From Globomyces pollinis-pini (lineage: Eukaryota; Chytridiomycota; Chytridiomycetes; Rhizophydiales; Globomycetaceae): a stretch of 64,000 nt of DNA. Under the pieces are notes generated by a model, which was not told the origin of the DNA, searched no databases, and saw nothing but the letters and a program-made list of their open reading frames with translations. The DNA is taken from NCBI GenBank assembly GCA_025399215.1, contig MU621165.1, positions 1 to 64,000 of the forward strand, in the 5' to 3' direction. A program made the translations under genes and the position numbers. This document shows, one piece after another, positions 1,545 to 52,348 of this stretch (position 1 is its first letter; the number at the start of each line of letters is the position of its first letter).

Positions 1545-3486
1545 TCAGTCCGCCTGAACCAGTGTGTTGATTGCTTGATCTAGTAAATATTTATGGGAGG
1601 ATTGCAAATAGCCCTTTTTACGTTCAATAAAACGATCCACAATTACCTCTATACATAAAATTGACTGTTCAATTTTGTGGTTTTTAAAATTCAACAGTTC
1701 TTTTAATTTGGACACCTCACCTTCTACCACCTTGAAGTTAGAGTGTCATAGCTTACCTCGTATACGTTCCCATGATTGGAATCCGTAACCTTGTTCTTTA
1801 GACTTAATTTCTTAAGAGTGGTCGATAATTCAACCTCTAAATCTCTTACTTATAAGACAGGACAAATACCTTTTTGTATTAATCAATTCGTTCACCCTCC
1901 GCCTCGCCCCTTCACGCTCTGACGTAAGAATTTCTTCTACACTATATAGTTTTGATTTCAGGGCCGAAATTTCCCCTTGGCTTTTGTCAAAATCTTCCTA
2001 AAAAGTTATCTAAAAGTTGTATCATTTACTAAGCTCTTATTAAATTTGTCTATTCTGGTTTCCAAATTTTTACACTTGTCAAACCAAAACCTGAAGATAA
2101 GGCGTTGTCCATTACTCACCTTTTCTCATCAGAAAGTTTGCTAAAATAAGACTGTATCGTTTGCAACAATTGGAGTTTATGCAGTATTGACTTTTTTAGC
2201 ATTTGAAATGTATCTATTTCCTTGAAGTAAACTCAAGCGAAAGTGAATACCTGAGAATCGATTCGAAAACCCAGGCTTTTATCCAAGCACTGACTTATTC
2301 TAACAAGTAGTAGATTTCTTTCTTTCAATTCCTTAATGAATCTCTGTCGATTCTCTTCAAACTGCTTGATGGGTATAGTTTCCACAGCCATGTTCGCCTA
2401 AAGAATGAATGAAGTATCACATACGGTCGTTCCAGTAAGACAGTCAGTCTGGCATTCAGAGGAAGTGCTACTGGTCTGTAAGGGATTTGCTTGCACAGCC
2501 GTATCTATCAAATGTGGTTTATCTGGAGCGGAATTCGCAATAATCTCCAACTGGGCTATTTTATGTTCATTTTCCAACATCTTGGTCTGTTGAGCATGGA
2601 TAATTTTTTTCAACTGTTCAATATCATCCGAGTTCGGTATGTCCAACTGTTTTGCTAAGCTATTGGTATGTTGGTCTTTCCATTTAAGCTCCAATTCGGT
2701 ATAGTGTGCTAACTTTCGATTACTGTCACTTAATTCATCTTTTAGCTGGTCGATTTCCTGCAGGGCAAGTTGCGAGACACTGTCATACTCTAGCAATTGT
2801 TCACGATGACGGGTTATTTCAACTTCGTTTTGCTCCACCATTTTCTCTAAATCGTCAATTTTCTTTTCACGCTCTCTCAAATTATTTTTCAATAGCTTGT
2901 TTTCGGAACTCAACACATCTATATGCTACACAGAAAATTAAGCAAAACATTTTGTACTTCTAAATGCTCCGATTGTTGATCCTGATAAGTTTCATGGACT
3001 TGTGTCAATTGAAATTGAGTTGATTCTAGTTCTTGAAGAAGATGATCTACATCCTCATCTTTCTGGTTTAGATCCGATTGTAGTTGTTGAAAGTTAGAGC
3101 TTAACGTAGCCAATTTGAGCTTTAACTCTGTACTCTACATATAAGCTAATGAGAAAATACATCATCTACTAGTTCTTTCATTCCTTCTGGAGTTAATTTA
3201 TGAAGTGTTTCTTGCAGAAACAGTACTAAATAAAATGAACACTGCAAACAGCAAACCTAATAGAAAGCTTTAGTAAGAGAATAATACCTAATATTGATCA
3301 GATATAATACCTGATAAACCTTTCATTTTCAAACTAAAGTTTTCCTTTTCCAAATCATCCATCAACTGTTTATTAGAGTAAGAATCAAACCTTCTCTCTC
3401 TGTCTCAATCCCATCCTTATATTCCGATCGTCAGTATCCTCATCTGAATAATTTAAATCCAAAAACTCTGGGTTTGAATCCATCAT
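1545..3486 (-). CDS. CM1/Cnn_1N coiled-coil protein, gamma-tubulin complex tether (centrosomin/Mto1/Spc110-like)
   Basis: The start codon at 3486 opens MMDSNPEFLDLNYSDEDTDD. After short introns the protein reads QREKLMDDLEKENFSLKMK, then LFLQETLHKLTPEG and ELKLKLATLSSNF. This is the CM1 (Cnn_1N, PF07989) pattern that recruits gamma-tubulin ring complexes to centrosomes or spindle pole bodies. The rest (about 2398-3113 and 1545-1730) is heptad-rich coiled coil, ending ...INTLVQAD. Introns include a 25-nt one at 3390-3366 and an 85-nt compound one at 3310-3226. The gene starts 74 bp downstream of the RAD6 stop on the same strand. Exons between about 1730 and 2400 are not fully resolved. Assignment to centrosomin versus Mto1 or Spc110 is not possible from the motif alone. 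Confidence 0.75.
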
Positions 3487-3559
3487 GAAAAGTCAAAGAT
3501 GTTGGAGGCACACACGGACTGAAACCAAACGTTATAAACAATCCAAATTTATTAAAAAA

Positions 3560-4126
3560 CTATTTCCAAGACTCTTCCACAGTCTCTCGCACTCGCTTGT
3601 TATACTCCTTCCGAGAGTCCGAAAACAATCGAGCAGCGTCTGCATTTGCTGGGGAATTGGGGTTAGGATCATGGCTATGATGAGTATAATGTTCATTACA
3701 GTAGCGATTGTATAGATGTTAAAATGGCTGCTACATCATATGTTGGTGACCATCGATTTTGGAGAATATCAAGACATAAATCCCCATTTGCATAAACTAA
3801 ATATAAGTCAAAGCGATCTTGTACCATTGGGATGGAACATTTTACTAACGAATTTGACATGAGGTGGTTTGGTCGGATAATCTTCATCAAAGGTTAGAAC
3901 CAGTTTAAATGTCTATCAAATCAATTATAACTTTGAATTACCTGTGATATTAAATTAAAAGTATGAAATTTACTCCATCCTCAAACGGTGTATCTTCTGG
4001 TCCAAAAATTACTGCATTCCACAATAGAACATTGTCAGGACATGGTGCTCCGCTAATCCCTTCAGGAGGATCCGTTTGAATTCTTTTGAAATCTCTCATC
4101 AATCTTCGTTTGGCTGTTGTTGACAT
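3560..4126 (-). CDS. RAD6: Ubiquitin-conjugating enzyme E2, RAD6/UBC2
   Basis: The exons join to [16 protein letters not shown]...[26 protein letters not shown], a segment ending at the catalytic cysteine [29 protein letters not shown], and a C-terminus [13 protein letters not shown]. This is the complete E2 core of Rad6, about 150 residues, without the acidic tail of the budding-yeast protein. Rad6 monoubiquitinates PCNA and histone H2B with RING partners in the nucleus. At least three short introns interrupt it, one of them compound (3973-3913). The stop TAG lies at 3562-3560. It is very likely single-copy housekeeping. Confidence 0.95.
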
Positions 4127-4221
4127 TTTCAATAATAAAAAGTAAAAAACGAAGGTCACTTTCTTTGTAATAATAACACACAAGACTGTCTTTTATGGGT
4201 AGATTTATTAAGAAGTATCCA

Positions 4222-5031
4222 TCACAAAGTAGTAAGATGAATGCCATCCCTGTCAACTATTTTAAATACAAATTCTGGTAAATTGGCCAAAAATCGTACT
4301 TTCAATTCTGCAATACATTTTGACATCAACGATTTGGCTTCTTCCACTGTCAATCCTTCTTTCCAGTAACGATCCATTGTACTCATACAAAAATATGATG
4401 CATACCCTTGTGCTGCAAATGGCAACTCCACCTAAACTATCAAATTTAAATTACTTATACCTAAAATATTATTATAATATTATCAAATTTTACCATCGAA
4501 GATAAATGATCAATCCAATAAATTGAAGGGGTGGATGTCTTTGGATCAGTTCCAACGACCATAACATTGACTTTGTATGCATCCTTACATTTAGATTATT
4601 TGAAAATGCATACCTATTATCGGCATTTAAGAAGTTTGTTAACATACCCGTGTTCGTAATGAGTCTGCCATCTCTCGTCTTGTAAAATGTGCAACTGCAT
4701 TTGGTGACATATCCAATCCATGTCTAATTGAATATAATTTTATATTCTTTTGAATGTATTCTGCAAAATTGACAGTATCTCCAGATTCGCCAGAGTAAAG
4801 CATCAAAGTATTCTTGTTCAATTCCCTAGATTTATCTTCGCCTATAATCCAGTATTAACGAAGGGAAACAATCCAATGTACCTTGCTTCATCAAAACAAT
4901 TGAACGAGCAAAGACAGCATCCGTTGCAGTTAAAACGAAATCCTTTCCAGTGATACTTAATAAAACCTATCGTAAACAATCCATCATCTTAGCCATACCT
5001 AGTATAAAAAGTGCTCTGATGATACCTCCAT
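4222..5031 (-). CDS. PRE1: 20S proteasome subunit beta4 (PSMB2/Pre1)
   Basis: The joined exons read ME|VLLSITGKDFVLTATDA, VFARSIVLMKQ|GEDKS, NTLMLYSGESGDTVNFAE, YIQKNIKLYSIRHG, FTRREMADSLRTR|DAYKV, SIYWIDHLSSM|VELPFAA and DGIHLTTL. This matches PSMB2, a non-catalytic inner-ring beta subunit without an N-terminal propeptide or Thr1 nucleophile. At least four introns are visible and three of them are compound (5025-4967, 4647-4584, 4493-4432). The first coding exon is only ATG GAG. Length fits the family at about 200 residues. Confidence 0.95.
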
Positions 5032-5771
5032 GTTTATAAGAAAGGAACAATTTGAGCAAGGGTTTAAGACAAGTGGCGTATTGAAATCTTCACCAATGAA
5101 AAGAGTCAAAAGAATTGATGGAAGAGTGGATGGTTGGATCCAAGTGGATCATGAGAGGATGGGGTCCAGCGTAGTTTGTTACCAAGACCATCTCATCATG
5201 AAGTCCAATTCATACCTAAAAAACTCTCATCCCTCTGGTAAACTTTTGGTGGTGATTCTCAGCAGATATGTAAATATAGATAAATCTACAACTATGATGA
5301 TAGCTTATTGGAATAGTTGCTTCAGTATGTACAATGAAGTATCCGCGCATGTTAGAACTAATTTGGCCCATCTAGTAACGGATGTGGAAATTGGAGACAT
5401 ATTGACTCTCAGTAGTATCCTTCACAGTCTATTGACCTTAGATATTATCTGGAATCAAAACCATTCCAATATATTCTTTAGAGCTGAATCTCATTTAGAA
5501 TTTGTTTATCGATTAATAAGCAACAGTAAATCGTTCACCTTTCATATGTTTAGACATGAACCATCGACAAAAACGCAATTTCTCAATGCAAGCTGGTGTG
5601 AAAGATTTAGTATTGTGGAGTATAAATCATCCAAGTATACACAAAGTAATTAATTGTGCAGGCATTGTATTTGCATCAAAAGGCATACTATCTCAGGATG
5701 CACAGTCATTTGTAGAATTAGAAGCAACAAATGCTGAAGTTATCAAGGATAAGAATGAGAACCTACTCTAA
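5030..5771 (+). CDS. Hypothetical protein, frame broken near its 3' end
   Basis: A 207-codon frame starts at an ATG overlapping the start codon of the oppositely oriented proteasome gene, so a later ATG (5096, MKRVKRIDGRVDG) is more likely. From about 5525 a different frame carries the better-looking C-terminus (DLVLWSINHPSIHKVINC ... FVELEATNAEV), ending with TAA at 5769. An intron or frameshift must connect the two near 5500-5560, but I could not fix its sites. I do not recognise the family. The composition is ordinary, with no signal peptide or membrane segment. Confidence 0.4.
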
Positions 5772-5947
5772 GTTCCAACTATGTCAAATTATTCATCGAT
5801 TTCATTCGGACAAATTGTCAAATCTGACTTTCAAAATACTTTCCTATCTGACGAAAAGGAATTCCTTTGTATCAGTCAATGCGCTGTTATAATTATGTAG
5901 TGTCCACCTTAACTCTTAAATAAACCTGCAATTTTTTCAACCTTAAT

Positions 5948-6801
5948 ATGGGTAATTTGGTGTCAAAGTCTCCAAAAGTGTCATCAAAAGACAAGGCAAT
6001 ACTAGAGTTGAAGGTTCAAAGAGATAAACTGAAGCAATATGAGAAGAAGGTTTCTTACTTTCAAAATTGTTAATGAATTAGGCAAGTAGAAACCCAGAAA
6101 TCTCACATGTATAGGTTATTCTAATTTTAGATTCATACCATATTAGATTCAAATAGTTATTGAGAAAGAGCTTGCCGTTGCAAAACAACAGCTGCAATTA
6201 AAAAACCATCATGCCGCTCGTTTAGCTTTAACAAAAAAGAAGTACCAAGAAAGCTTATTGGAAAAGACTGGAAATCAGCTACTAACAATTGAGCAATTGA
6301 CTGGAACCATCGAGTATGCATTGGTTGGTAAGGACGGACCAATTAATTATTTGTTTAGAACAGGATATCATCAATCGGTTGGATATGGGAAACAAAGTAT
6401 TGGAGAAAATACATCAAGAAATGAGTATTGAAAAGGTTGAGAAAATAATGGATGTAATTTCTCAGTCTTACATGATAGGACACTGCAGACGGTATTGCTT
6501 ATCAAAATGAAATTCAAGAGATAATGAGTCGAGAGTTATCAGAAGAGGATGAAGAAGAAATTATGGCACAACTAGATGCCCTGGTGCAAGAAGAGGTATG
6601 GGTCTCTCTCTTTAATGATAGATGGAAAATGATATCAAAATTTTACCAACTGTGCCAAAGGGTGATGCTGTAGAAAATCATGCCATTGATTCGAAGTTCC
6701 CCAATGTTCCGGTCAAAGAGCCCGAAATTTCTATTAAAACGAAAGAGAAAGGCAAAGCGAAATGTAAATTCTGTCATCACTCAATATATAGCAAACCCTG
6801 A
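5948..6801 (+). CDS. VPS20: ESCRT-III subunit VPS20/CHMP6
   Basis: The protein starts MGNLVSKSPKVSSKDKAI, with a myristoylatable Gly2 as in CHMP6, continues QRDKLKQYEKK|IQIVIEKELAV, KKKYQESLLEKTGNQLL, IEYALV|EQDIINRLDMGNKVL and HQEMSIEKVEKIMD|DTADG, and ends with an acidic helix (EEDEEEIMAQLDALVQEE) and a basic tail. Vps20 bridges ESCRT-II to Snf7 on endosomes. The introns are a 97-nt triple compound one (6050-6146) and single ones of 31, 25 and 26 nt. The stop at 6799-6801 is only 34 bp from the convergent katanin-like gene. Confidence 0.93.
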
Positions 6802-6835
6802 AGATGGTATGGTTGCTGTATAATTTTTAAATATA

Positions 6836-8729
<1,894 letters not shown>

Positions 8730-9046
8730 CAACAACTTCACGCGACGAAGAAAATAACAGAGGACATTTAGTATTACAAAAAGCAGGATAATGTTTCAAT
8801 GATACGTTAAAATAGTATTAACACTGCTTTATCGGTAATTTCGTTGGCTGTAGTCACTCAAGGAATATATTTGCTTACACAGAAGCAACATTATACTATA
8901 AAACCTCTTAACATCTATCTTGGAATAAAAAACATTTAGATAAAAGCCTTGTATTTGATAATGATTCCAGATTCGAGTGGATATATTCCTAATGTAGACA
9001 CCTATTCCAGTTTTAAACAATTTATTAACTAGGAACTACACCACAG
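8730..9046. other. Intergenic; no gene recognised
   Basis: This stretch separates the 5' end of the katanin-like gene from the 3' end of the GRASP gene, both on the minus strand. It should hold the katanin-like promoter and the GRASP terminator. No convincing frame is present. Confidence 0.5.
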
Positions 9047-10471
9047 TTATTTTGAAAGGCTATGGGGGTTCTTTAGAGTATATGAAAGTGATTGTTCTTT
9101 CAGAATAGGATTAGTTAATTCTTCTGACGTGATGTCGTTGGAAGGTTCCAACTTTGGTGAATGTTGGTGCTTATGAGCAGAGGATTTCTCAGCTTTTGCT
9201 TGAGGCTTAGAGTGAGTTGAATGGTCGTGGTCGTGAGAATGGTTGTGGTCGTGATCGTGATCATGATCGCCCAACTTTGGTGGTGAATGTTGATGCTTAT
9301 GAGTAGTCAGCTTCTCAACTGCTGACTGGCCATTAGAATGAATTGAACGATCATGAGAATGATCTTCCAACGTCGGTGAGTGTTCATGCTTAAGAGTGGA
9401 AAGATTCTCGACTTTTGATTGGGGATTAGAGGGTGTTGCATGAGTGTGAGAATGATCATGAGTGTGATCACATACATGCCCGTGATCATGATGGTTATGT
9501 GTGTCTGGGGGATCTACTGCTCCCTGGGCATAATTAGTGGCAATCGTATTGTACCTCAGCTGAATTTGAATTTTGATGACTGTTTTTGTTTTCTTTCTTT
9601 TCCATAACTGTAGTAGGTTTAGAAATGGTTCTATTTGATAAAGCAGACTCTGTCTTGGAAAGAGCAATACGATGAGAAAACCTTAAAATCAGATTATTTT
9701 CAGTTACCCATAGCCTATTTCGCATCCAAGACTTCCAAGACCTCCCCAATTCGAGTCTGGTACTATAACCACTTCTCGCACGACATCCATATCCGTATTG
9801 TAGACATATAAACTTAATGGTTTGTTCTGATTCACTTGAATCAAATCTGCAAAGTCATTATTATCATTTAATAACACTAGTATTAATCAACAGATTTAAT
9901 ACCATTTGGTGAACCCAGTATATAATCTTTGAAGGCTATCAACCCGGCACTTGATGCGGGAGAATCTTTTGATACTTCCAGAACGTGCCTATGCCCAAGT
10001 TAATTTAAAATGTTACCAAACTCTTTCATGGGCGTCTCGAAAATCGCATAGCTTAACAGTACTATTTAAACCACCATTTTCAACGGGGACTACTGATACA
10101 TCTAAGTTTAATCTTCAATCAAATAAGTACTCCTCAGAGCCATTGTTTTCGAATTATATACAATCAGAGGTAAGAGTCTTCCGCTGTGTTCTTCAATAAT
10201 CCTTTTCAAATAGGTGGGATCATCATCCTGCTAATAAGTCTCACTGATTTACTAATCGTTGGCCTATAAATGAGAAAAGCGGTTCTAATTATGCCTTTAG
10301 CGTGTGTAATATAGTCAAAATATGGTTCTATTCCAGCATTCTCGGCCAATTTCGATGCTCTAACGACATGATATCCTGATCGTCTTGAATATTAATCATT
10401 TACCTAAGCTGCTTCCTTCTAATTGAGACGTTTCTTGGCCCCTACTGATAAATCCTGTATCCACTTTACAT
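9047..10471 (-). CDS. GRASP/Grh1 Golgi reassembly stacking protein with His-rich tail
   Basis: The start codon is split: AT at 10471-10470, a 28-nt intron, then G. The result is MGQETSQLEGSSLGYHVVRA, which keeps the N-myristoylated Gly2 and first PDZ-like domain of GRASPs (ENAGIEPYFDYI, GQRLQDDDPTYLK, PLIVYNSKTMALR). The second PDZ-like domain follows (ERVWHVLEV, AGLIAFKDYILGSPNG, LSLYVYNTDMDVVREVVI, SNWGGLGSLGCEIGYGFSHR). The C-terminal tail, normally Pro/Ser-rich, is here strongly His/Asp-rich (HDHGHVCDHTHDHSHTH, DHDHDHDHNHSHDHDH), ending HSLSK. GRASPs link Golgi membranes and support unconventional secretion. It has many 22-31 nt introns, and one appears to be GC-AG (10294-10264). Confidence 0.9.
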
Positions 10472-10539
10472 CTAATGTGAGAAAATGAAAATGAGTAGAA
10501 CAAAAGTAACGACTTGAACAAATATTTATTGGAAGATGA

Positions 10540-10915
10540 ATAATGGGGGATAATCTCTGTTGGAGACTTTTATTAAGACCTTCCTTCGGTAAGAACAGTA
10601 TAGGGAAATTTATCAACTGTACTTATATTCTATAATTATTCTAGGAGGAATTTGACTTTGACACTTCCAAACATTGATACGTAAATACATTTAAAGAGAT
10701 ATAGGAGTTTATGATCCAGATCAACGCGAAAATACTAAAGTCCAAACTGGTAATGTTTACACTTGCGTCTCTGGATGCCATCAATTGGTGCAACCTTTTA
10801 AGAGACTTACCATTAAATATTTACGATTGTCGATTCAACTGGTTGAAACATGTTGTTGTGGATAGTTTGAATTGCCCAGTTCTTCATAGAAGTAACAGCA
10901 TCTTTTAGTTATATC
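10540..10915 (+). CDS. Probable small intron-rich gene, unrecognised
   Basis: Between the divergent starts of GRASP and p47 a series of exon-like pieces is visible on the plus strand: GDNLCWRLLLRPSF, then after GTAAGAAC...TCTAG a piece EEFDFD or an alternative frame, then VYDPDQRENTKVQTG, NVYTCVSGCHQL and LTIKYLRLSIQLVETCCCG. Several are flanked by good GT...TAG sites at about 25-60 nt spacing. The segments look like real protein (Cys- and Leu-containing, balanced), but I cannot name a family or join the frames with certainty. Limits are approximate. Confidence 0.35.
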
Positions 10916-11018
10916 CTTGTACGAACAGTTCAACGTATTATACCATCAGGTACATCCGGAGATAAATGAAATGCAGATCCTAGAAAATTTGAAGTAACTT
11001 TTTCAATATTTCAAATCG

Positions 11019-12417
11019 ATGGGTGATAAGGAAGAATTCATGAGAATCACAGGAGCAAATGCAGATCATGGTATGGAGTGCTAAGGTGAAGTTAATTAAA
11101 TAGGTATCAAATACCGGCCTATAATATGTAGCAACGTATTTCTTGGAAGCTAGTAAAGGTGATTTACAAACTGCAATTTCCACATTTTATGAATCGCAAC
11201 AACCAGCAAAGGATGACAGAAAGTATGCTATTTATAGCCATTGATATATAGAATAAAAACATTCCAGGAATTACAAGCTGAAGATGAGGATTTGTCAGAT
11301 GATGATCCCGATCAAAAACTGTAAGGCAGTTGGTATTAAACATTAGGTAATGGAATGATACTTCAACTAAATCTGTAGTTACGCAGGTGGCGAAAAATCG
11401 TACGTTAATCATTATTAAAATCAAAGTGGTATTGCTGTGAAAGGACCACCAAAGGAATCAACTGCAGAAGGCTTGGTGAAAGATATCCTTGGACAAGCTG
11501 CAAAGTTTGAATTCTAGTTTTATTAATACCCCTGTAGAGGTGGTGTTCATGAAGAAGTCGCGAAAAAGCCAAAAACCTTCAGTGGTTCTGGTAATACTAC
11601 ATTAACATCTAATATTTAGGATTTAGATTGGGTTCGGAGCAAGGACCATCAACAGTGAGCACCCCTGCTGAACCACCGGTCAGGGAGTTAGAAACAGTAT
11701 GCTGGAAAATTTTAATGCTGTTTCTTTTTAGGTTTCGAGACTTTTGACGTTTTGGAAAAATGGGTTCAGCATTGAAGATGGGCCTTTATTGCGTTATGAC
11801 GATCCAAAAAACCAAGAATTTTTAACTGCAATAAAATCTGGGTTTGGGTTATGATCCTTTAACATGTAGACGAGCACCAACATCTCTTATAAAGGCTGAA
11901 CTTAACCAACCTGTTGAAGTGAAGGTAGCACAGCGAATGGAAGAAGATTACCAACCGCCTCCAAAGGCCCCAATGAAATCGTTTCAAGGAAGTGGTAATC
12001 GTTTGGGTAGTATCGCTGGCCCAAGCGCCTCTTCAAGTGCAATGCCTGGTGGTTTCCCTGCTGCTTCAAATACTAGGGCAGAGACCTCAACAGTCACTCC
12101 TTCGTCGATTTCGGTGAATAATGATCTACCAATTACAAGTATCCAAGTCCGGCTTGGTGATGGAACAAGGTTTAATCATATATGTTAAATGGCAGATTAA
12201 TTGGACGGTTTAACCATGTACACACCGTGCTTGATCTTAGAAGATTTGTTCAGGCGTAAGTTAATCTTTTATTTTAACACACTCTCATAGTTCTCGTCCT
12301 GATTCTCGGTCTTTTGTACTCCAAACTGCTATGCCAACCAAAGTCATTTCCGATGATACCTTGTCCTTAAAGGATGCTGGTTTGCTAAATTCGGTTGTTA
12401 TTCAACGATATGTTTAA
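11019..12417 (+). CDS. SHP1: p47/Shp1 (NSFL1C) p97-CDC48 adaptor: UBA-SEP-UBX
   Basis: [25 protein letters not shown] and TAISTFYES form the UBA domain. [16 protein letters not shown] lies in the linker. The SEP domain reads [38 protein letters not shown] and [12 protein letters not shown]. The UBX domain ends the protein ([51 protein letters not shown]). p47 recruits Cdc48/p97 for membrane fusion and proteasomal work. About ten introns interrupt it, including two compound ones (11071-11131 and 11321-11378) and a 21-nt exon (11379-11399). One intron (GTTTGG...TGTAG before RAPTSLIK) removes bases that an ORF finder would read as coding. The stop is at 12415-12417. Confidence 0.94.
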
Positions 12418-12590
12418 ACTGAAGATTCGTAAATAAATGAAATCGCACAACTCTTTTCTACAAAAGCATATGATATCATTTTAAGTACCAATCACTAATA
12501 TTATATATTTGTTCTAAGATATTTTTTGAGATAGTTCAGAAAATAATACGATTTTATATTGATTCGGTATAGTAATGCAAGGGTGCTACT

Positions 12591-13445
12591 CTAACAACAT
12601 CCTGATTGAGTTTGAGTTGAAGGTGCTCCATCAATTCTAATTGGATCTGGAAAATCACTATAACATAAAAAAGGCATGATTAAATTACCTATACAACTCC
12701 ACTTGGGCCTCTTGTTTGATTGCGTTTTTGGCAATAGTGTAAAACGCTTGTTCTACATTAATTGCTTCCTTTGCACTAGTTTCGAAATACTACTGTTAAA
12801 TCAAGGTAAATGTACTGGAATTGCTCCTTTTTGTTGAGCCCAAGTCATTGCTCTTTTTTGAGTCACCTAGTCTTAACAATCTACAATAGAAAACCTAAGA
12901 TTAGACTGTGGAACTCAACCTGTCGTTTAGATTCCTCCACATCCACTTTATTGCCGAGCACAACAAATGGAAAATTCTCTGGATCTTTTGGTGATGCTTG
13001 CAACAAGAATTCATCTCTCCAACTGTCCAATGTATCGAAACTCTTGGCATGATTTACATCATAAACCAATGCGCAGCAATCAGCACCTCGATAAAAAGCT
13101 ACACCTAAAGATTGAAATCGCTCTTGGCCAGCAGTATCCCAGATCTTAAATTTAGTTTCCATTAGCATACTTGCATAGTAACTAATCGATCATCCACCAT
13201 AACTTCTTTGGTTAGAAAATCTGCTCCAATTGTTGCTTTATATTGACCACTGAATTTTTTATTGACATATTGATTCATCAAAGAAGTCTTTCCTACACTA
13301 AATTGATTAGCAACTAACAGCTGATACCCACTGTCTCCGAGGATGATGACTTGTACTTAGCATAGAATATCCAATACCTTGATAATGAATGACTAAAATA
13401 CATACCTTTTAGTAACACTTTCTTTTGATTTTGGTTTGGTGGCAT
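12591..13445 (-). CDS. YPT7: Rab7/Ypt7 GTPase
   Basis: The exons join to [127 protein letters not shown] and a C-terminal QTQSGCC. All G-boxes are present (GDSGVGKT, WDTAGQE, GNKVD, ETSAK), plus the Rab7-typical ADFLTKEV effector region and a double-geranylgeranylation end (TQSGCC). It acts in late endosome to vacuole fusion. Introns are 22-30 nt, and the one between KVLLK and VQVII is compound (13405-13356). Confidence 0.95.
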
Positions 13446-13898
13446 GGGAAAAGTCAAAAAAGAAGAACAATGAAAATCAATATAACGACAGATACTGTAA
13501 TGAAGTTCTCTTTAGGAATATCAAAGAGGATCCTTCTCCTTCGAATCATATTAATACAATTGTGATTGTGCATACAATTCCAGTAACTTTATTATTGGTA
13601 TCAAAATTGTTTGTATTAAAACGAGTCTAGCACAATGTTTTGGTAGCCATTGAATTTGTTCGCTGGAATATTGTTTTCAGACTATTATAACACTCCAATA
13701 CTGATATGATTTGTTGATATCTGTGACAATTTCAATTTAAATAATAAACAGCAATTTTGACACTAGAAATTATATTTATGTCGGTTAAGGAGTCCTGTGT
13801 TCATTTCATTCTTACAGAAACTTTCCTGTGAATTAGGAAATGATAAGCGTAATAAGTGATACCAAAGAATATACCAATTAATATTCTAGACAGCAGCG
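13446..13898. other. Divergent intergenic region
   Basis: This separates the start codons of Rab7 (minus) and an uncharacterised gene (plus). It is AT-rich. A short open frame at 13436-13630 overlaps the Rab7 start and has no family likeness. I see no RNA gene. Confidence 0.5.
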
Positions 13899-15184
13899 AT
13901 GAAATTGCAATCACCTAGTTTGAGTGATACGCACCATTGCGATGATTTGGTATCACATGGATATCCGAATTCTACTCCACGCGCGAAGCTTCGTCAAAAT
14001 ATCACAAAGCGTAAAAAAACGAGGAAAGGAGAAGGATCTAAGTGAGAAAACTCATTTTGTTCCCATGCCCAAATACTGGCCTGGTAAAGTTACCTTTTAA
14101 AGTTTTTCGTCTCAAGCACTTATTACCTCTCTATAAGTTATCTAAAATTTTGTAGGAAAGATATCACAAGATGATTTGTTCTCCGAATTTTCTATTGGGA
14201 TACGAAATGAAATCCATCGCCAAAATCAAAATCCATTGGTCACGCTACGAGTGATCCAATTAGATTTTAAACACCATGATTTTATTATCACAATACCAAA
14301 ATCTTCCACAATCTTTAGAGTGCAGTGCGAAATTGCGCGTATACAACATGATGGAAGTGTCAATCAAAAAGATGGTAAACAAATGACTTACTCATGATCA
14401 GTTATAATATTCCTACAAGAACCAAGAACCCCAGCAACATTAATCAAGGAAAAAAAAGGAGAAAACAAAGAGGAATCTATATTCTCGGAGGATATAAACA
14501 GTGACCCTTCAAGTCTGTCAATTGGTATCCCAGAATCAGAAGTATGTACCGACATTCTTAGGCCTCTCACTTACTATTTTCCTGAAATCAAATCATTTCA
14601 ACTGCCTCCTTCATATGAGAAGGTACGTTTAATTGCTCTCATACCTGAAATAGACAACTATACCCACTTTCTTGCATCAAATACCCTTTACAAAGCTCAC
14701 CACAGAAAACCAAAGCCAATTTCGCCAAATCAAAGCTGCTTCTGGCTTCGATTACCCAACTCCATCTTATCCTATTTTCTATGATATACTACCATACATT
14801 AGAACCAAGCGTTATATTAGGCAGAAAACACTAGATACTTCAACAGATAGACTTATCAAGCCATTCGATTTTGCCAAGTGTATCACTTGCGTTTCCCAAT
14901 CAAGTGACTCTAATTTGAATCCGTTAAATGCCCTAATCCAACCAGATAACAAGCGGTTAACCCCAAAGTCAATAACAAACTATCTCCCAAATATATACCA
15001 GAAAAATCAGAACATAAATCGTAAATCCATCCAGAGCATATTAGATAGAGTGCCATCAAAACTGCCTTATATGCTATCTCATGCAGTTTTCACAAACAAA
15101 ACGCGAGGAATTGGTCAAGTTTATGGTGGGATAAAAGATAAAGATGATGCAGATGATATCAATGAGAAAAAAAAAGAAGATTGA
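13899..15184 (+). CDS. Uncharacterised protein, about 370 residues
   Basis: The likely start is MKLQSPSLSDTHHCDDLV, followed by a basic stretch (RQNITKRKKTRKGEG). After introns come DDLFSEFSIGIRNEIHRQ and a beta-rich segment (LVTLRVIQLDFKHHDFI, TIFRVQCEIARIQHDGSV, VIIFLQEPRTPATLIKE) that could be a ubiquitin-like or similar small fold. The last exon (14672-15184) encodes DYPTPSYPIFYDILPYIR and ends DDADDINEKKKED. I do not recognise the family. The beta-rich middle suggests a structural or scaffold role; a flagellar role is possible but unsupported. The stop is 12 bp from the convergent exportin gene's stop. Confidence 0.6.
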
Positions 15185-15196
15185 CAGAGTACAAAT

Positions 15197-18100
15197 TTAT
15201 TCAAACAAATCACCAAAAACTTGAACTTCCGAAGTATCAAATATATCTTTTCCCTTTGTGTTAACCAATTTTTCAAATATGCCGTCGTAAACATATCTAC
15301 GCTCTTTAGTTAATGGTGTATCAGACTATATAATTAAAAAAGGACATGCATTACTTTCAACACACTTGAAAGGAATTTTTTCGCCATTTGAGTTCGATAT
15401 TTCAAAGTCCCTGAAGCGCAACAGAATTTCTACTTGAATTAAATAGTTGAAAGCAAACCTCAATCTCTGCCTCACTTAAACCATTAATTGTCATTAAATT
15501 TTGTCGAATTATTCTGCTATGTGGGTCAATTGTATCTACAATCTGAACGAAAAGCTGCCAAGCAACATCATGGTTTGATTTTTGATATGGATTATTCAAA
15601 ATGTTCAGTACAGAAAATAAGATATGATTTCCAGTAAAATCTCTTAAATGTAAAGACTTTTCTACACAAGGCATCCACTTAAGCAAAGTCCATAAAATCT
15701 GTGAACAACATTTTGTATCTCTAATCGACAACAGTAGCAACAATCCTGTTTTACAAACACCGAAAAAATCCTATCGTAAGTTTTACTGCTTACATTGTTG
15801 GATACGATATAATTGACCAAACTATCATGTTTAAATACAGTTTCAAGTGCTGGGTTCTGTGTGGTTGAAAAGATGGTAGACCAAAATTCACTGTATGCAC
15901 GGGTGAACTGACGTTTTAAACGATCGTCTATTATATCATCAGTGACATCACTTGGATCAAGGCTACATTAACATTAGAAGCTTAAGAAATTACTTGTCAG
16001 TCAAACTATCGTCAATAATCTTTTGCCATTCGAGAGCACATTTTTGATTTAATTGATTGCAGATACCCACCATGTTTGGAGAGAAATATTCTGGATATAA
16101 TTTTGGTGGGCAATTTAATACAAAAGGCACTAATACTGCAGATATAAGAGATTTCCAATGGTGTGTGGACACAAAACCAGTCTTTGACACGATTGAGCGA
16201 GTGAAGTTTTCGCAAAATTCTTGCCGACCATACAGATATTCTGAGAATCTCGTCATGGTCCCCAATAGCTGATAGCTAATATAAACACAGATCACATTAC
16301 TTGACTTCTCTCATTCTTCCTAGCCAACTAGCAATGTTAAATATTTCAGCATCTAATGAATGCTCAACAGCATTAACATTCGCTTGTTTAGAAATTTCAT
16401 TATCTTGAATTAAAAAACCCAAGTTACCTATACCGATTGCCAACATGCGCTCTCTAGGGGTGAGCAACGTTATTTTGACAAGTAAAATTGGAAACGATTT
16501 CAATAAGTTGGCGTCCCACAGATTATGAACCTCACTTTCATTAGTTTATTTTGATTACCTGATACATGAAAAAACGACTGGAGTGAGTAACTCAAGAAAG
16601 GGAATCCATAGCTGCTGTGATTTTGTCAAATCCTAGAAAGTATTTATAATCAAACCATTACATCTTTAGTGACGTCAAAAGAGCGCTTCAAGTATTGCCA
16701 AAATGATGAGATAAATCCCATTAACTACTGTAAAAAATTGGAAAACAAACTTTCTTTCGGTTATTGTTGTACTGTTCAAAATCTTCTCCCTTCTCTAAAT
16801 TCAAATCAATGGCTGGATTAGACACTTCTGTTTTAATAAACTCAGTCTCTTACAAATTTTGGCCAGTGATTCAATGCCGCAAAACTTTTGGAAGCTGCCA
16901 AATTCTTGTAAAGACTTTGATAATACGTTGTAATCATTCAAATCGGGCTCAAGGATGCGGTTAAGATACTCGCGGTGCGTATTAGAAGGCAAGCTAGATC
17001 CTAACATGGTAGCAATAAGGAATTCTGTAAGAAGACGAGATTCACGTTTCATTATTTTGTGTTGTTTGGTCATAGACGTAATTGATTCAAGTAACTGTTC
17101 GAAAAATGGCTGTAAAAGTTAAATTCAGAATCAATGATACTGTCAAACTATCAGGTATCGTTAAACCTAATTTTAATATTGACGATGCGGCTCGATGGCG
17201 AACTGCTAATTCATCTTCATTAGCTTTTGCATCACTCGAAGTGACATTAAACGCGCAAAAGAAGAAAAACTACTGTTATCTACCATTGTTTACTTTCTCC
17301 AAACATTTATATATCAAGGCAGGATACAATTTCAATACACTGGAAAATGTTACAACCATGGATAATTGATGCACAACGATTTTCAAATCCTGAAATGTGA
17401 AATCAAATGGGTATACCTGAATAGAGAGGTCTAAAATTGCGTTGAGTAATTGTCCCATTTCAAATATTAAAGGTTGATTCTGTTCAATTCCTGTTAAAAA
17501 TTCCTCTGGAATTGATATCATAATCACTTCTAAAGCCTTTGTCAAAGATGCGACAGTGTAATCGCTTCCTTGATTTGTGAAGTATAGCTTTAACTGATTA
17601 TTGATCCAAGAGAATGCAAAGTTATGCTAGATACATAAAAAGCGGGTTTCTTACATTAGAGCACGTAATATGTTTCATTATGTCAAGTCGCTTGACGGTA
17701 TTCTGAGTAAGAATAACATGAACTTCTATGTCATTTTCTCCATCAAACTCCAAGTAGATGCTCTGTGGTGAGTTTAAACTATTCTAACTGTTAATATCAG
17801 CAGCATACGAAGCTCAGTTCCTTAGCTATAATTGGTAGTATCGAATGAGATATAGAGGGATCCAACAGTATCTATACATCAGAAAGACAATAAACCTTAG
17901 CCATGTACTCATGCCTATATGCTTCATACACAAAATCTATACCAATCAAAGATATTGACAACGAAGGATGTTCAATAAGTTTGATAATGCTCTCCAAATA
18001 TCTAAAATGAAAAAAAATAAACAGCATACAATGGAAATCCATTCGGAATAGTGGTATTCTTTTTAAAACATATTTGGTTGATTCCGAATACCGATATCAT

Positions 18101-19333
18101 CTATCGTTAGGAATGCCTCCTTTCTATACCTTTGATATTTTCTTCAATATGCCATATTCAACTTCAGGAATTGAACTATGTTGGGTAATTTGACTTTGAA
18201 CATAAGAATTCAAATTCGACCATAAGGAGAGTGTCTGTTGTAACAACCCACCAGTCAGCAATGGATTTACTATCAACTCAAACCGTACGTCTTCTTCATC
18301 TATGGATATATGATGAGAGAAGAGTAAGGTAATAAGATCAACCACTACATCCACTATCTTCATATTTGGAGAATGAATCAGTTGAAATAGTAATGACATT
18401 GTTTCCGTTTCCAGTAATGCTCTATATACGTTTAGAGAGACGCAAGTTTACGAAAATGGAACCCATTCTAAAAATGAACTTAAGGTATATAGACAAAGGA
18501 TTGTTAATTCCTCCAATCGCCTTTGTTGTGCATCATTTTTACTAATCTATATCTATTAAAAACTGTATTATACCAGTAAAAATGAGTAACACTTTTTCAA
18601 ATCATCTAGGGTGCGAATTATCCAGCCTTCATTAATTGTATCTGCTCTGACGATATTTAAAAGTAAATCCAAATCTGCATTGTTTGCTCCTTTTTGTTTC
18701 TCAAACCAGACGTTTCCAAACTTCTGTCCAAACGAAACAGCCATTAGTGAAGTGCTAAGAGGTAGTTTACGTTGATTGGCAAGCGGGTCATCATAGATAA
18801 ACACATCTTCAATTAAAGATTTCAAGATCATTAAAGAGATTTCAAACGTAGCTTCCTTATCATCAATAGTTAAAGCATACATTATCATGAAAACTTCTTA
18901 AGATAAGATCAAAATCAGTCCATTGTTGAGGCCAAATCCTTTTCACAAGTGCAACAACCAACTGAGAATACTTGACTTTCAAATATTTTGGATCATTTTC
19001 GGTAAAGCACTATTGAATTGAGTATCAAAGATGAATTTATACTTGAATTAAAGACACAATAGTCGGTTTAAGTTGGTCATGATGACTGGTATGTTCTACA
19101 GCGTATAGTATCATATCTAATCCAAAAAATCGAACAGTATAATTGGGATCATTGGCCAAACCAAGTGCAATGTCCAGTTTGAAGTTTTGTTTTTGAACAT
19201 CACAGTACTACGATTAAACCAGCATTAAATCAAGTACATTCTGAGCACTGAGACGCTGTTCATTAGATGACAATGGGTTGTGTATAGTTGATAGTGCATT
19301 CCTTATCATTTCGTGTACTCCACTGTCCATCAT
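15197..19333 (-). CDS. Exportin-5/Msn5-type karyopherin
   Basis: The start at 19333 gives MMDSGVHEMIRNALSTIHNP, then QNFKLDIALGLANDPNYTVR and FFGLDMILYAVEHTSHHDQ, the first HEAT pair of exportin-5. Further on, VPFVLNCPPKLYPEYFSPNM aligns with the late exportin-5 motif FVKPLVLFCPPEHY, and NLMTINGLSEAEIEVCFQ lies near the C-terminus. The last exon ends VFGDLFE before TAA at 15199-15197. Exportin-5 (Msn5 in yeast) exports tRNA, double-stranded RNA or phosphoproteins with Ran-GTP. The coding length (over 1000 residues) fits. Many exons between are visible as fragments (MKSFPILLVKITLLTPR, MIMYALTIDDKEATFEI), but not all joins were resolved. Confidence 0.78.
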
Positions 19334-19480
19334 TGTGAAAAAACAAATAAGAAAAGGTTAAACAGAGACATGATTTGATGAACAGCATTTGTAAGTATAC
19401 GATAGATACTTCAAGTTGAACATAGCAAGAGATTCCTCGAACACATCCTTCTGCTTCAGTTAAGTCCCAATAAACACTCA

Positions 19481-22136
19481 ATGATTCCCGACCTGACTGG
19501 ACTTCAATTATGCGAGTATTTGGTTAAACTTTTGGTGATTCACACGCAGTTCATTGGTTGGTTGGTAGTCTGCGACTTAATTTTTGTCCAAATGAAATTT
19601 AAAGGATTCAGATTTACTGGAACTAATCTACCGATACCAAATCTTTGGAACCCAAATCTAGTATCCCGGCCATCAGTGATCTGCGCAAGCTCATCAAGAA
19701 TACTTGCTTGTAAGTTCTCAGTCTGTAAAGGAGACGTTGGTATTACACACCAAACTGTACCAGACTTATCTATGGAGCAACGAGCAATTGTTTATGCTGA
19801 TACGAAAAAGAATTGTATAGTTACTGCAGGTGCAGGTAGTGGGAAGACTTTTACAATGTTGAGGAGAATACAGTACATTCTGGATTTAGGTACGATTTCA
19901 CCATAGCTTCACCATATCCAATTGATCATATTCTAATGCATTTATTAGGAGTTAAAGAAAACGAGATCTTGGTCACTACATTTACTACTCAAGCAGCATT
20001 CGACATAAAATCAAAATTACATTTATTTCTTGGATCAAGTACCAGTATACTTGTCAGTACTATCGACTCCATTTGTTTGCGAGGGTTGAAAGATATGGGA
20101 CTAAATACTCAAAAATATCACGTATCGGAATACTCCACCAAATTCCAACAACTATTTGAACAGAATAGAGATATATATTCAAATGTATTCTTTGAAATAT
20201 TTATTAATTGTAGATCAAGTATGTGTTTGTTGACGAATTTCAAGACATAAATGAAACCCAATTCAAGATCATTTCTAATTTAGAGAGTAGAGGGTGTGTC
20301 ATATTTGGTGTTGGGGATACTGCTCAGAATATTTATAGATTTAGAGGAGCAAACTCAATATTTATGACAAACTTTTTTGAGAATTCTCAAAGGTTCACAC
20401 TAACCAAAAATTACAGATCAACTAAATCGATCATCGAATTTTCGAATGCTGCGCGGTCAAATTTTGAAAAAAATAATATGATCACACATATACCAAACAG
20501 TGGTCCAACACCTTACATTCATGAATTTGAAACTTCGGCTGCGCAATGGGATGGTATTATCAAATACATCAGACAACTGGTCTCCAAAGGAGTGCATTTA
20601 GAAGATATAGTTATTCTATCTCCAACCAGGAGATCTTTAAAGAAGATGGAGGCTGCATTACTTGAGGCTAATATTGATGTTATTTTGTTTGAGAAATCGT
20701 TCTCTTACTCAAGAAAGCCCCAAAGAGGTTATGTATCTCTTTCGACAATTCATGGATCCAAAGGACTAGAATGGGATGTAGTTATTTTATTGGAAATGGC
20801 TGATACTGCAATGCCAAGGTTCACCCACAAAGACGGCCTTTATGATTCAAGGAGATTGTTTTACACAGCCATAACTAGGGCAAAACATGCTTTATTACTC
20901 TGTTATGTACGAGGAACTTTACCAACTCGATTCCTCACTGAAATTCCAATTGAACTATATGATCATAATTTCAAGAACGCTATAAGTAAGGATCAGTATT
21001 CAGATAAACGACCCCCTATTGCTAAAAAGACATTAGATCAAGTGATTTGTCATTTGAATGGAAATGACTACCAACAGTTACGCGAAAACGATATTTTACC
21101 CAGTGATCTAGTTACATGCAAAACGGTTGGAGAATCTTCACAATATTCTTCTCTGATACATAGAGAGCATGTTTTCGAAGAACTTTCGCTATTTGTAGAA
21201 GTTTTTTTTATTCGAAGTTTATCCAAGTGGTTGAACTTGGTTGAAAACAAAATCGATCCAATGGTAATCGAATTGATGCGTGGGACAGCATTAAATCAAA
21301 GGGATTATCAACTCTACAGTAGATACCAACGTCATTTAAACAGAAATATGGACAAAGTGCTCGACAAATTTCCAACCCCTACCAAAGAACTTTTAGATCA
21401 GAACAAGGTAGACATTCAATCGATACTTTCTTGTGGTTTTGAAAAAAAGATACCTTTGTCTGTGGTTTTGAATCTCAACAGATTGATCCCTAATATTCTC
21501 GAAAAAGCTAGAAATTATGCATTGCCTTGGAGAAAAGTCAAAACTTTTGAAACTGACTTTAAAATTGTCCCCAAACGATTTCAGAAACGAATTCAAAATA
21601 GTTGTGAGACTTACTCAAATTTCTCTCTGATCACAACTGATATTCTTGATGCGATATTGGACATCGCTATATGTCATTCAGTACTATTGAAGAAACGTTG
21701 TAGATTGTTATACAGTAAGTCGCTAACTGGGAAAAAATTGTTTAATGAACACAAAGCCATGTTTGCAACTATTCACAAGTTTATCACAAACAACTTTGTC
21801 AGTAAGGAAAAGGCGATTAATGATCCTATAACTGGTCGAATAATCTGTAGAGGATACGTGCAGCATTCCTTTTTTACCCACTTTCATCATGAATTTCATG
21901 TACGGTACGGAAACACTATAATGCAATTGCATACGTCACCCCATGAAGATTTAGGCCCCGACGTTATTGTTAACATGCTTGCCTTGAAAGCCATATGCGA
22001 TTCAGATTGTGGTGATTCTGAACCCATTCGAAATATAATGGTACTTAATCCATTACTTGGGAAACTCTTTAACATTGACCTTTCAGGATGGGATAAAGGT
22101 AAAGAATTGCTCGCTTTTCTTGACAAACTGGCTTAA
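19481..22136 (+). CDS. UvrD/PcrA-type SF1A DNA helicase, atypical C-terminus
   Basis: All SF1A motifs are seen: TAGAGSGKTFTM (Walker A), LVTTFTTQAAFDIKSKL (Ia), YVFVDEFQDINE (II), GVGDTAQNIYRFRGAN (III), FTLTKNYRST (IV), LSTIHGSKGLEWDVVIL (V) and RRLFYTAITRAKHALLL (VI). Motifs II to VI and the C-terminus lie on one long exon (to 22136). Introns at 19890-19948 (59 nt) and about 20185-20213 (29 nt) restore the frame. After motif VI comes a roughly 390-residue region that I do not recognise, ending VLNPLLGKLFNIDLSGWD. A start at 19592 (MKFKGFRFTG) is as likely as 19481. It differs from Srs2, and its length and tail suggest a lineage-specific or acquired helicase. Confidence 0.85.
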
Positions 22137-22356
22137 AAGTAAATAAATTATTGTATATCTTTGCGCTAATTGAGCATTTCTTGGATTTTAAACGTGACCG
22201 AATAGCTTAAAAATGCAAAGTAACAATGTACTTTTTCTTGGAAACGTTATTCCTAAGCGCAAATACTAGATGAATACAAATGCCAGCAAAATAGTTTAAT
22301 ATTTTACTATGCTACTATTTTTTGAGTGATTTATTCTTTGTCGGACAAACATCAAA

Positions 22357-23616
22357 ATGGCAGAAATGATTCATGAGCAGGAGGAAGAGGAATTGCAATT
22401 TGGACCCCTTCCTATTGCTAAACTTCAAGTAATGTTTATACGATTAACCCTGGCAAGGAAAGTGGATTGTCTGCTGGTGACATTGCAAAGTTGAAAGATG
22501 GAGGATATCATACAATTGAAGCAATTGCATACACACCTAAAAAGGCTCTTATGAATATCAAAGGAATTTCAGATGCTAAAGCAGATAAAATCATAATGGA
22601 AGGTAACAAAGTACATCTTTTACGTTACCAGCTTCCAAATTGGTTCCAATGGGATTTACTACAGCAACGGAGTTTCATCAACGAAGGAGTGAGATTATTA
22701 ATATTTCGACTGGATCACAGGCATTGGATACTTTACTTGGTGGTGGTATTGAAACAGGATCAATAACCGAGATTTTTGGCGAATTTAGGACCGGAAAGAC
22801 ACAATTGTGTCATACTCTGGCAGTAGTATGTCAGGTAATTCCCATACTTCTAATTTTCAGTTACCAACTGATGTTGGTGGGGCTGAAGGAAGATGCTTGT
22901 ATATTGACACAGAGGGAACTTTCAGACCAGAGAGACTTTTGGCTGTTGCCGAAAGGTATCTTTGTTATCTCTAAAGTGTAGATATGGGATGGATGGTGCC
23001 GAAGTTTTGGAAAACGTTGCATGTGCAAGAGCATATAACTCGGATCACCAATTGAAACTACTAACAACTGCTGGTGCTATGATGGCTGAACAGCGGTTAG
23101 TCATCAAAACATTCTCATTTCACATAGATTCGCTTTACTTATAGTAGACTCGGCCACTGCCCTCTATAGGTTATTTCGTTTTGTTTTAATAGTTAGAACA
23201 GATTATGCAGGACGTGGGGAATTGTCTGCCAGACAGATTCATCTTGCTCAGTTTTTAAGAAATTTGCTAAGGCTGGCTGATGAATTCGGTGTTGCTGTGG
23301 TAATTACAAATCAAGTTGTTGCTCAAGTGGATGGTGGTGCTGCAATGTTTAATCCAGGTAGATAGCCTTAATTCTCATTTATTATAGGTAACGCATTAAG
23401 TTGTAACTTCAGATCCCAAGAAACCTATTGGAGGTAAGAACATAGTTTGATTAACATTTAGGAAATATTATGGCTCATGCCAGTACAACTCGATTGTATT
23501 TGAGAAAAGGTCGTGGAGAAAACCGTATCTGTAAAATATATGATTCCCCTTGTTTACCAGAATCTGAAGCAATGTTCTCGATTAATGCTGATGGAATTGG
23601 CGACGCAAAAGAGTAG
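22357..23616 (+). CDS. RAD51: RAD51 recombinase
   Basis: [20 protein letters not shown] is followed by the helix-hairpin-helix domain ([31 protein letters not shown]). The RecA core has [18 protein letters not shown] (Walker A), [40 protein letters not shown] (Walker B), [16 protein letters not shown] and [19 protein letters not shown]. The C-terminus [18 protein letters not shown] and the KPIGG loop fit Rad51 rather than Dmc1. It catalyses strand exchange in homologous recombination. Introns are 25-30 nt; one is compound (23358-23412) and is followed by a 21-nt exon (23413-23433). The start is at 22357 and the stop TAG at 23614-23616. Confidence 0.96.
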
Positions 23617-50646: not shown

Positions 50647-52348
50647 ATGTTTTCAGTGAAATACTCAAAACCATTCGTTGCTTCTACTTGGTTAAATACT
50701 ACTTTGAATCACAATCTAATCAATCCTTGGTCAAAAAATACTATCACTATTCATCATAATCATCCTAGTGATGTTGAAAATGCTGTTGCAATCGCAAAGA
50801 ATTCATTCAAAAATTGGTCACAATCATCTCCAAAACAAAGAAGGTGATCTATCTATATAAACTTTTATATTAGGTAATACATCTTGTTTAAAATAAAGTC
50901 AAATTCTATTGAGTTTGGCAAACAAAATTGAATCGAATCTGGAAGAAATATCTTGGTTAGAATCTCAAGGAGGAAAACCAATTCAACAAGCAAGAGAAGA
51001 TATCATTGCTTCAATTGATGTTTTCAAATATTTCGCGACTCAAACTGAATTCACTAAAGGTATCCAATACAAACAATTGATTCCAAGGTTCGAGTTATAA
51101 CAAACATTCATTCTTGAACAGATATTCAAAGTCGAGGAAATAATTCAAAACATTACACTATCAGGTAGATCACGTTGTGCAATTCATCTTGTAGACAGCC
51201 AATTGGAGTATGTGGATTAATAACCAGTTTTAACTATCCATTTTTATTGACCGCCTGGAAAGTTGCTCCTGCATTAGCAGTAGGAAATGTACTTCAAAAT
51301 CAATCTAAAGTATAGACTATAGTTTTGAAACCAGCACCTCAAACCCCATTATCTACTTTATTTTTAGCTCATTTAACAACCGAAACCGATCTACCAACAG
51401 GGGTCTTCAATGTCATATTAGGAGAGAGGCAAGTCGGAGAAAGTCTTGTGAAAAACAAAGATGTATCAATGATTTCATTTACAGGTTCTACTCCAGTTGG
51501 CAAACAAATTGCATCCGAATGTGCTACACTTTTAAGACCTTCAACGTTAGAATTAGGTGGGAAAAATGCCGCTATCGTTTTTGCTGATGCTGATCTTCAA
51601 TCAACTACAAAATTAATCATTGACGGAGCATTTTGTATCAAATTTCTATTAACTCTTTATAGCAAACATGGGTCAAAATTGCTGTGGCATATCAAGATTA
51701 TTTGTTCATTCATCTATATACAACGATTTAATTGTTCGATTAACAGATGCAACCAAAGCTCTGGTAATTGGTGATCCATCTCTTGAACATACTCAAATCG
51801 GTCCTGTTAGTAATGATCTCAACACTTATCATTTCAGTTGACCAAAATGCATTTGATAGGATTTATGGCTTTATCCAACGTGCAAACCAAAATGGTATCT
51901 ATCCAGTAATTGGTGGTCAAGATTATCAGGGAAAACATTGTACCATAACCCCAACCATTTTCACTAATGTGCCGGATAACTTGGAAATCTGTCAAACGGA
52001 ACTTTTTGGACCAGTGTTGACAATTCTACAACCGTATATTGAAACCATGACTCAACTACAGGTTCGAAACAGAACAAGAAGTGATTTCAAGAGTCAATGA
52101 TACAGAATATGGATTAGCTTGTGGGATATTCACTTCTGATGATGATAGAGTGATTCGATTGGTCAACCAACTTGAGACTGGAATGGTAATTTGATGAAAT
52201 GGATCATGAATAGATTTGGCATAATACGTACAATGATATCCCACCCTATATGCCATTTGGTGGTTTGAAGCAATCTGGATGGGGAAAGGATTTGGGTAGT
52301 GAAAGCTTGAATACTTTTACAACTGTTAAATCTATCGTTGGAGTCTAA
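50647..52348 (+). CDS. Aldehyde dehydrogenase (NAD(P)+-dependent, betaine/aminobutyraldehyde-type)
   Basis: [20 protein letters not shown] is followed by [108 protein letters not shown] (general-base Glu), [15 protein letters not shown] (catalytic Cys), [18 protein letters not shown] and [19 protein letters not shown]. All ALDH motifs are present, and the end is TVKSIVGV. Introns of 26-28 nt occur, for example after AVGN, inside LQP|FE and after ETGM. Substrate class is inferred from the overall pattern only. Confidence 0.93.

Follow-up and report, generated by a model that had tools for sequence, protein, structure and literature searches.

Tandem arrays of complete micro-introns abutting at AG|GT in a chytrid genome

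Introduction

The origin of introns is an old question, for which few cases have been caught in the act. It is raised here by a stretch of 64,000 nucleotides (nt) from Globomyces pollinis-pini (Chytridiomycota, Rhizophydiales in the NCBI taxonomy), hereinafter the window, in which introns of conserved housekeeping genes can be read as two or three complete GT...AG introns joined without an intervening exon base. The window corresponds to C76:1-64000 of the searched assembly (18,547,825 bases, 459 contigs), and each of the three window proteins that were searched has a public Globomyces pollinis-pini protein as its best match (RAD51 at 99%, VPS20 at 96% and CM1 at 98% identity). Are these compound introns more than a play of letters, how did they come about and how might they be removed? 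We find that such arrays occur genome-wide, comprise 2 to 7 units where homology fixes the gene, and have outer borders that constitute one intron position. We consider it probable that each is a tandem row of complete U2-type micro-introns meeting at AG|GT across an exon of zero length, and that the rows arise by tandem duplication and are removed unit by unit.

Compound introns in the window

A preliminary description of the window, made from the sequence alone, had listed ten introns splitting into consecutive GT...AG units. All ten split as written, save that one junction reads AG|GC. A purpose-written ab initio gene finder, which combines a coding model with splice-site weights, contains no AG|GT rule and was trained on the window together with 20 further 10-kb stretches, recovers the outer border pairs of nine of the ten exactly, the tenth (Rab7) being mis-modelled. 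In addition, proteins spliced as proposed were aligned to homologues, the typed models having been checked against the DNA except for p47; an alignment of this kind cannot separate one 55-nt intron from two of 30 + 25. Homology had been said to fix the outer sites, and it does so for RAD6, the three introns of PSMB2, the two of p47 and that of RAD51, whereas the right end in Rab7 and the donor in CM1 need moving.

The RAD6/UBC2 intron (3913..3973, minus strand) comprises units 3973-3942 (32 nt) and 3941-3913 (29 nt), and the spliced protein aligns without gaps to 7uv8_A over 150 residues. PSMB2, also on the minus strand, has three two-unit introns at 4432..4493 (4493-4461, 33 nt; 4460-4432, 29 nt), 4584..4647 (4647-4614, 34 nt; 4613-4584, 30 nt) and 4967..5025 (5025-4999, 27 nt; 4998-4967, 32 nt), with no gap at the intron positions and one 1-residue gap elsewhere relative to solved homologues. 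On the plus strand, p47/SHP1 has two such introns, 11071..11131 (11071-11103, 33 nt; 11104-11131, 28 nt) and 11321..11378 (11321-11346, 26 nt; 11347-11378, 32 nt), again without gaps at the intron positions, the gaps lying elsewhere. In all six cases the gene finder and homology concur. For RAD51 (23358..23412, plus strand; 23358-23387, 30 nt; 23388-23412, 25 nt) the gene finder is joined by the public protein (P0001), from which exactly the 55 nt of 23358-23412 are absent. PSMB2 additionally contains a 40-nt intron (4842-4881, minus strand) without AGGT, which is not compound and is longer than nearly all others, the protein being ungapped there against homologues.

The remaining window arrays call for amendments. 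In Rab7 (minus strand) the right end had been placed at 13356, giving units of 28+22, but homology requires 13350 and units of 28+28 (13350..13405; 13405-13378 and 13377-13350), the spliced protein having no gap at this position against solved homologues. A second two-unit intron of this gene, absent from the earlier list, lies at 12867..12919 (12919-12895, 25 nt; 12894-12867, 28 nt; both donors GTT); of its two alignments, one runs through without a gap, while in the other a 2-residue gap lies three residues ahead of the intron. The three-unit array of the CM1/cnn_1N gene (minus strand) had been read as 3310-3226 (23+31+31), a start shared by the gene finder and the public protein. Since all three relatives read LKMKVCFLQ without GLS, the donor is more likely 3319, so that the array probably spans 3226..3319 (94 nt; 3319-3288, 32 nt; 3287-3257, 31 nt; 3256-3226, 31 nt), while the public protein contains GLS and fits donor 3310. 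The region 3226-3319 thus offers two alternative in-frame donors, nine bases apart, on which homology and the public protein disagree.

The VPS20/CHMP6 array (6050..6146, plus strand), placed by the gene finder and homologues, splits in three as described (6050-6081, 32 nt; 6082-6114, 33 nt; 6115-6146, 32 nt), although its first junction is AG|GC, making the middle unit a GC-AG intron and a description as GT throughout inexact. Nine residues of the public VPS20 protein, ASRNPEISH, derive from the middle unit of the 97 nt; this insert is missing in all eight homologues aligned (chosen from 120 listed), and the public model is probably wrong, or else represents an alternative transcript form. 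Across the 12 listed window junctions, TAG precedes the joint in 10 and GTA follows it in nine by our own count. The units had been assigned the 22-34 nt range of stand-alone introns; after the Rab7 and CM1 corrections the units of the ten introns measure 25-34 nt. The gene finder suggests a further possible two-unit intron (30+25) with a weak donor GTG at 50844..50898 (plus strand). Elsewhere in the window, a predicted protein at 9047-10143 (minus strand) has a long His/Asp-rich repeat tail.

Intron lengths and the question of a ceiling

With a flat intron-length prior of 15-150 nt, predicted lengths peak at 28 nt. After retraining with a length model, single introns (n=544, 20-40 nt, well-scored genes) range from 23 to 38 nt with a mode of 28, and 21 of the 762 predicted introns exceed 40 nt (our own sum). 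Single introns divisible by three appear too few (148/544), as expected if retained introns should meet a stop, a bias to which the gene finder may contribute. Certain long predictions result from model error: the 101-nt RAD51 intron of the flat-prior run (23096-23196) conceals a 42-nt exon (32+42+27) that is present in the public protein. Others are real, namely a homology-fixed 69-nt intron of gamma-tubulin (C15:9923-9991), in which an internal AG is absent, and probably the 59-nt intron at 19890..19948 (plus strand), whose borders come from the gene finder and whose gene is putatively helicase-like. The latter had already been set apart as unsplittable, and indeed a second GT is absent. These two introns refute a hard length ceiling, which the preliminary description had entertained in supposing that only very short introns might be accepted by the spliceosome.

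Excess over chance, in the window and genome-wide

Abutting units would be of little interest if AG|GT junctions fell at random within AT-rich introns and a handful had been cherry-picked. The excess over shuffled introns that had been proposed as a test is borne out: a central AGGT occurs in 16 of 34 flat-prior introns of 50-70 nt (9/13 in the window, 7/21 outside) against a shuffled mean of 1.86, with none of 300 shuffles reaching the observed value, and no other 4-mer of the central zone is as enriched as AGGT. When internal exons of any length are allowed, the gene finder places 18 of length 0 against 10 of lengths 1-20 combined, or eight against six under a stricter intron penalty. At the first setting the window contributes 11 against three, and five held-out 10-kb stretches yield, in addition to these totals, four (all on L029) against one.

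Across the assembly, the two-unit pattern GTAT..TAG|GTAT..TAG has 242 matches with spacer 0, compared to 51 with a 1-base and 48 with a 2-base spacer. Three consecutive TAG|GTAT junctions are found 26 times and three consecutive TAG|GTA junctions 105 times, both against 0 with one-base spacers. Reversed patterns yield 164 matches against the 242, one against the 26 and 12 against the 105, and one further pattern yields 91 against 88 for its reversal; as reversal alters the words themselves, we judge the spacer controls to be fairer. The best 100 of the 105 TAG|GTA triple places resolve into 61 separate arrays on 50 contigs, and provided that the sequence past the outermost junctions is likewise intronic, the chaining of places gives a minimum of four units in 40 of these arrays, five in 10, six in six, seven in three and eight in two.

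Of the 242 two-unit matches, about 50 are thus background, which is what speaks for chance; against it stand the shuffles, the zero-length exon counts, the triple junctions and the homology-fixed borders, leaving coincidence or cherry-picking with a negligible probability. As an origin of the AG|GT junctions, chance is ruled out by the spacer controls and by a gene finder ignorant of AG|GT. The notion of zero-exon tandem arrays is, in turn, strongly supported, up to at least seven units.

Arrays outside the window

The longest homology-fixed array lies in an E2 gene on the minus strand (C88, 46090 to 45896), which we call UBC8-like. Its 195 nt comprise seven units (27+29+25+28+30+28+28) with AG|GT at all six junctions. 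The gene finder called the fifth unit an exon, and without it the protein aligns ungapped to the E2-24 kDa enzyme 8pmq_E over 78 residues. In gamma-tubulin, four units (C15:10105-10212; 108 nt, 29+24+26+29) are flanked by protein that aligns ungapped over 133 residues. Ran (C168, 4917 to 4826, minus strand) has three (92 nt, 32+32+28; ungapped over 43 residues against Gsp1), of which units 1 and 2 are identical across 32 nt. Three near-identical units (C11:4002-4080; 29+26+24) occur in a gene that we presume to be DOP1-like, and for whose protein a search for a solved homologue found none. Further putative triples are present on C31 and C2; in the second of the C31 arrays, the third unit is our own reading.

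One row may be of another nature. At C68:15904-16038, five 27-nt units have an open frame that continues in frame into a downstream SDR-like gene (MLSIVLMLG...KRLAVVTG); in all, six 27-nt AG|GT units precede this gene, and an 8-nt repeat, GTAAAAGA, occurs on both sides. This row is doubtful and may be a coding repeat or an exon-derived one of the kind reported in fission yeasts; it was left out of the similarity and branch-point tests below. Could other arrays likewise be coding minisatellites rather than introns? The open frame of the C68 row is the case in favor. Against it, all three forward frames are closed in 12 of 17 arrays (C68 being counted with its first unit included), and the partly open ones (PSMB2b, Rab7, DOP1-like and C31a) are not multiples of three and would shift the frame. 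The Ran, UBC8-like and gamma-tubulin arrays meet stops if left unspliced. We regard it as very improbable that some arrays are coding minisatellites.

Origin of the arrays

If arrays grow in place, neighboring units should resemble one another. We compared 92 adjacent pairs (96 of the 242 two-unit matches, minus four from C68) with re-paired units: 16 score above 0.2 against 1.25 expected and four above 0.5 against 0.02, and the observed mean similarity is reached by none of 300 re-pairings. Among pairs with all three forward frames closed the count is 13 of 57 against 0.77 expected. In Ran, the border between the exon and unit 1 and that between units have the 10 bases TATTAG|GTAT in common. 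The frequent likeness of neighbors shows that some of the arrays came about through tandem duplication of entire introns; in these, neighboring units are copies and growth proceeds by duplicating exactly one intron. In the remaining arrays the units are either too diverged or have arisen otherwise. An AG ending the upstream exon shows no clear excess as a general cause, with 7 of 18 arrays by our own count against 170 of 544 single introns, the latter having at least two letters in common with the intron end.

Removal of the units

We sought the branch-point motif YTNAY 5-16 nt before the unit end, along with the stricter form YTRAY. In window units, YTNAY is present in seven of 12 non-terminal units (shuffled 3.1; equalled in 1/200 shuffles) and four of 10 terminal ones. 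In six arrays outside the window it is present in all 17 non-terminal (shuffled 5.6) and five of six terminal units, and YTRAY in 13 of 17 and three of six, although these arrays were picked for matching TAG|GTA and include copied units, so that good junctions and motifs are partly selected and not independent. As the units carry splice sites and mostly a branch-point motif, splicing unit by unit is likely, judging from the sequence. Moreover, one-step removal would give diverged non-terminal branch points no reason to persist, a consideration that favors unit-wise removal without proving it.

Several observations weigh against our reading of the arrays as duplicated introns removed singly. 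The training stretches outside the window give seven zero-length exons against seven of lengths 1-20, albeit seven at one length against seven spread across twenty lengths. Of the 92 adjacent pairs, 76 do not score above 0.2, and the seven-unit array has no similar neighbors. This lack of detectable similarity is what one would expect if units had been inserted independently, by reverse splicing or in an introner-like manner, targeting by preference the AG|GT at the border of an intron already present, and the donor border does make a good proto-splice site. Such insertion, also suggested in the preliminary description, is unneeded where neighbors are copies, as the similarity test and Ran show; the majority of pairs, which share nothing, may have either origin. 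The clear excess of adjacent copies tells against it, as does the rarity of flanking direct repeats, which exceed 3 nt in one of 17 arrays, C68 alone. We hold independent insertion to be an unlikely account of the arrays.

With regard to removal, YTRAY in the window does not rise above shuffles (non-terminal 4/12, reached in 41/200; terminal 2/10, reached in 132/200). Furthermore, a row of 24-bp AGGT repeats in fission yeast is reported, on the basis of expressed sequence tags, to be one intron across four copies (PMC4974935). By analogy, the outer GT and outer AG of the arrays might be used in a single reaction, the internal AG|GT being functionless relics of duplication. The single 59- and 69-nt introns agree with such one-step removal, and the public RAD51 and CM1 proteins, which lack the whole stretch, are compatible with both readings. 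What speaks against it is the presence of branch-point motifs in 24 of 29 non-terminal units, to be compared with 371 of the 544 single introns; the retention of donor- and acceptor-like junctions between dissimilar units, for example in the UBC8-like gene; and the length of the 195-nt array, far beyond the usual 23-38 nt. One-step removal accordingly strikes us as unlikely, and we return to duplication with unit-wise removal as the probable course.

A proposed mechanism and its significance

How could duplication hit upon exactly one intron? We propose that the splice-site consensus ..TTAG|GTAT.. would act as a short direct repeat at both unit ends and so set the exact register, the TATTAG|GTAT of Ran being the kind of short repeat that slippage would require. 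Slippage or unequal exchange between two junctions would then add or remove one whole unit, leaving frame and protein unchanged. The spliceosome, presumably recognizing units of some 28 nt by intron definition, could remove these singly and in any order because each has its own donor, acceptor and mostly a branch-point motif, and the removal of any unit would restore an AG|GT or exon junction usable in the next round. The arrays would be neutral or nearly so and would diverge over time, yet they would persist because the decay of a junction would result in an intron far beyond the normal length. A bolder extension, to which we give an even chance, is that introns here behave as a minisatellite with one working spliceosomal intron per repeat, slippage changing the unit number such that strains differ, and rows of up to eight or more being cleared one by one. 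If true, minisatellite-like introns would represent a self-amplifying, transposon-free route of intron gain.

The rows that are plainly copies of one intron show a simple way for introns to multiply in place. In conserved housekeeping genes, intron copies of differing age, from identical (Ran) to unlike (UBC8-like), adjoin each other, which could make it possible to date duplication, divergence and loss. The arrays are a test for the spliceosome as well: can seven introns of some 28 nt each be resolved when nothing lies between them, and in what order? Lastly, they serve as a warning that gene models may err at zero-length exons, as in VPS20.

Comparison with known systems

Our literature search returned no account of complete introns lined up with only zero-length exons in between, which is weak evidence of novelty as subscription papers and preprints mostly lay outside it. 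A likeness to recursive splice sites or stwintrons had been drawn at the outset, and of the two the former is apt. In the recursive splice sites or zero-nucleotide exons of Drosophila and human, the joint is likewise AG|GT with zero exon, and the first reaction rebuilds a donor; the arrays share this joint, apart from the one AG|GC junction of the window. However, recursive sites have been described as ratchet points within long introns (PMC5126111), whereas the segments here, 24-34 nt in 17 arrays, are each a minimal intron of some 28 nt and form rows of up to at least seven. Stwintrons likewise place two U2 introns at one position and require consecutive reactions, and some kinds proliferate in fungi. 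They are nested, the outer intron having its donor, acceptor or branch point interrupted by the inner one (PMC8469720), while units in the 17 arrays abut end to end and leave every signal intact, making any order workable.

Intron gain by tandem genomic duplication, as in potato RdRp and the 24-bp AGGT repeats of fission yeast, similarly generates an AGGT-bordered removable copy that leaves the protein unchanged. Adjacent copies are found for part of the arrays, as the similarity test and the identical Ran units attest. There an exonic segment or intron-exon stretch is reported to be copied (PMC4974935), whereas here, where copies are seen, a whole existing intron is duplicated, in many genes; Ran, gamma-tubulin and the DOP1-like gene copy a whole GT..AG intron, and only C68 looks exonic. 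Repeat expansion in Cryptococcus CNN00420 also adds identical intron copies by slippage or unequal exchange. It concerns a single gene whose introns lie in a repetitive region, and the available portion of its description does not mention zero-exon rows (PMC2395259). Introners, too, place many near-identical introns in one genome, but they are described as dispersed, often with target-site duplications (PMC9860276), whereas the copies here are adjacent and flanking repeats are rare, array and following exon having a common start of more than 2 nt in one of 17. Within what these partial sources convey, the nearest known systems each match one aspect of the arrays and none the whole.

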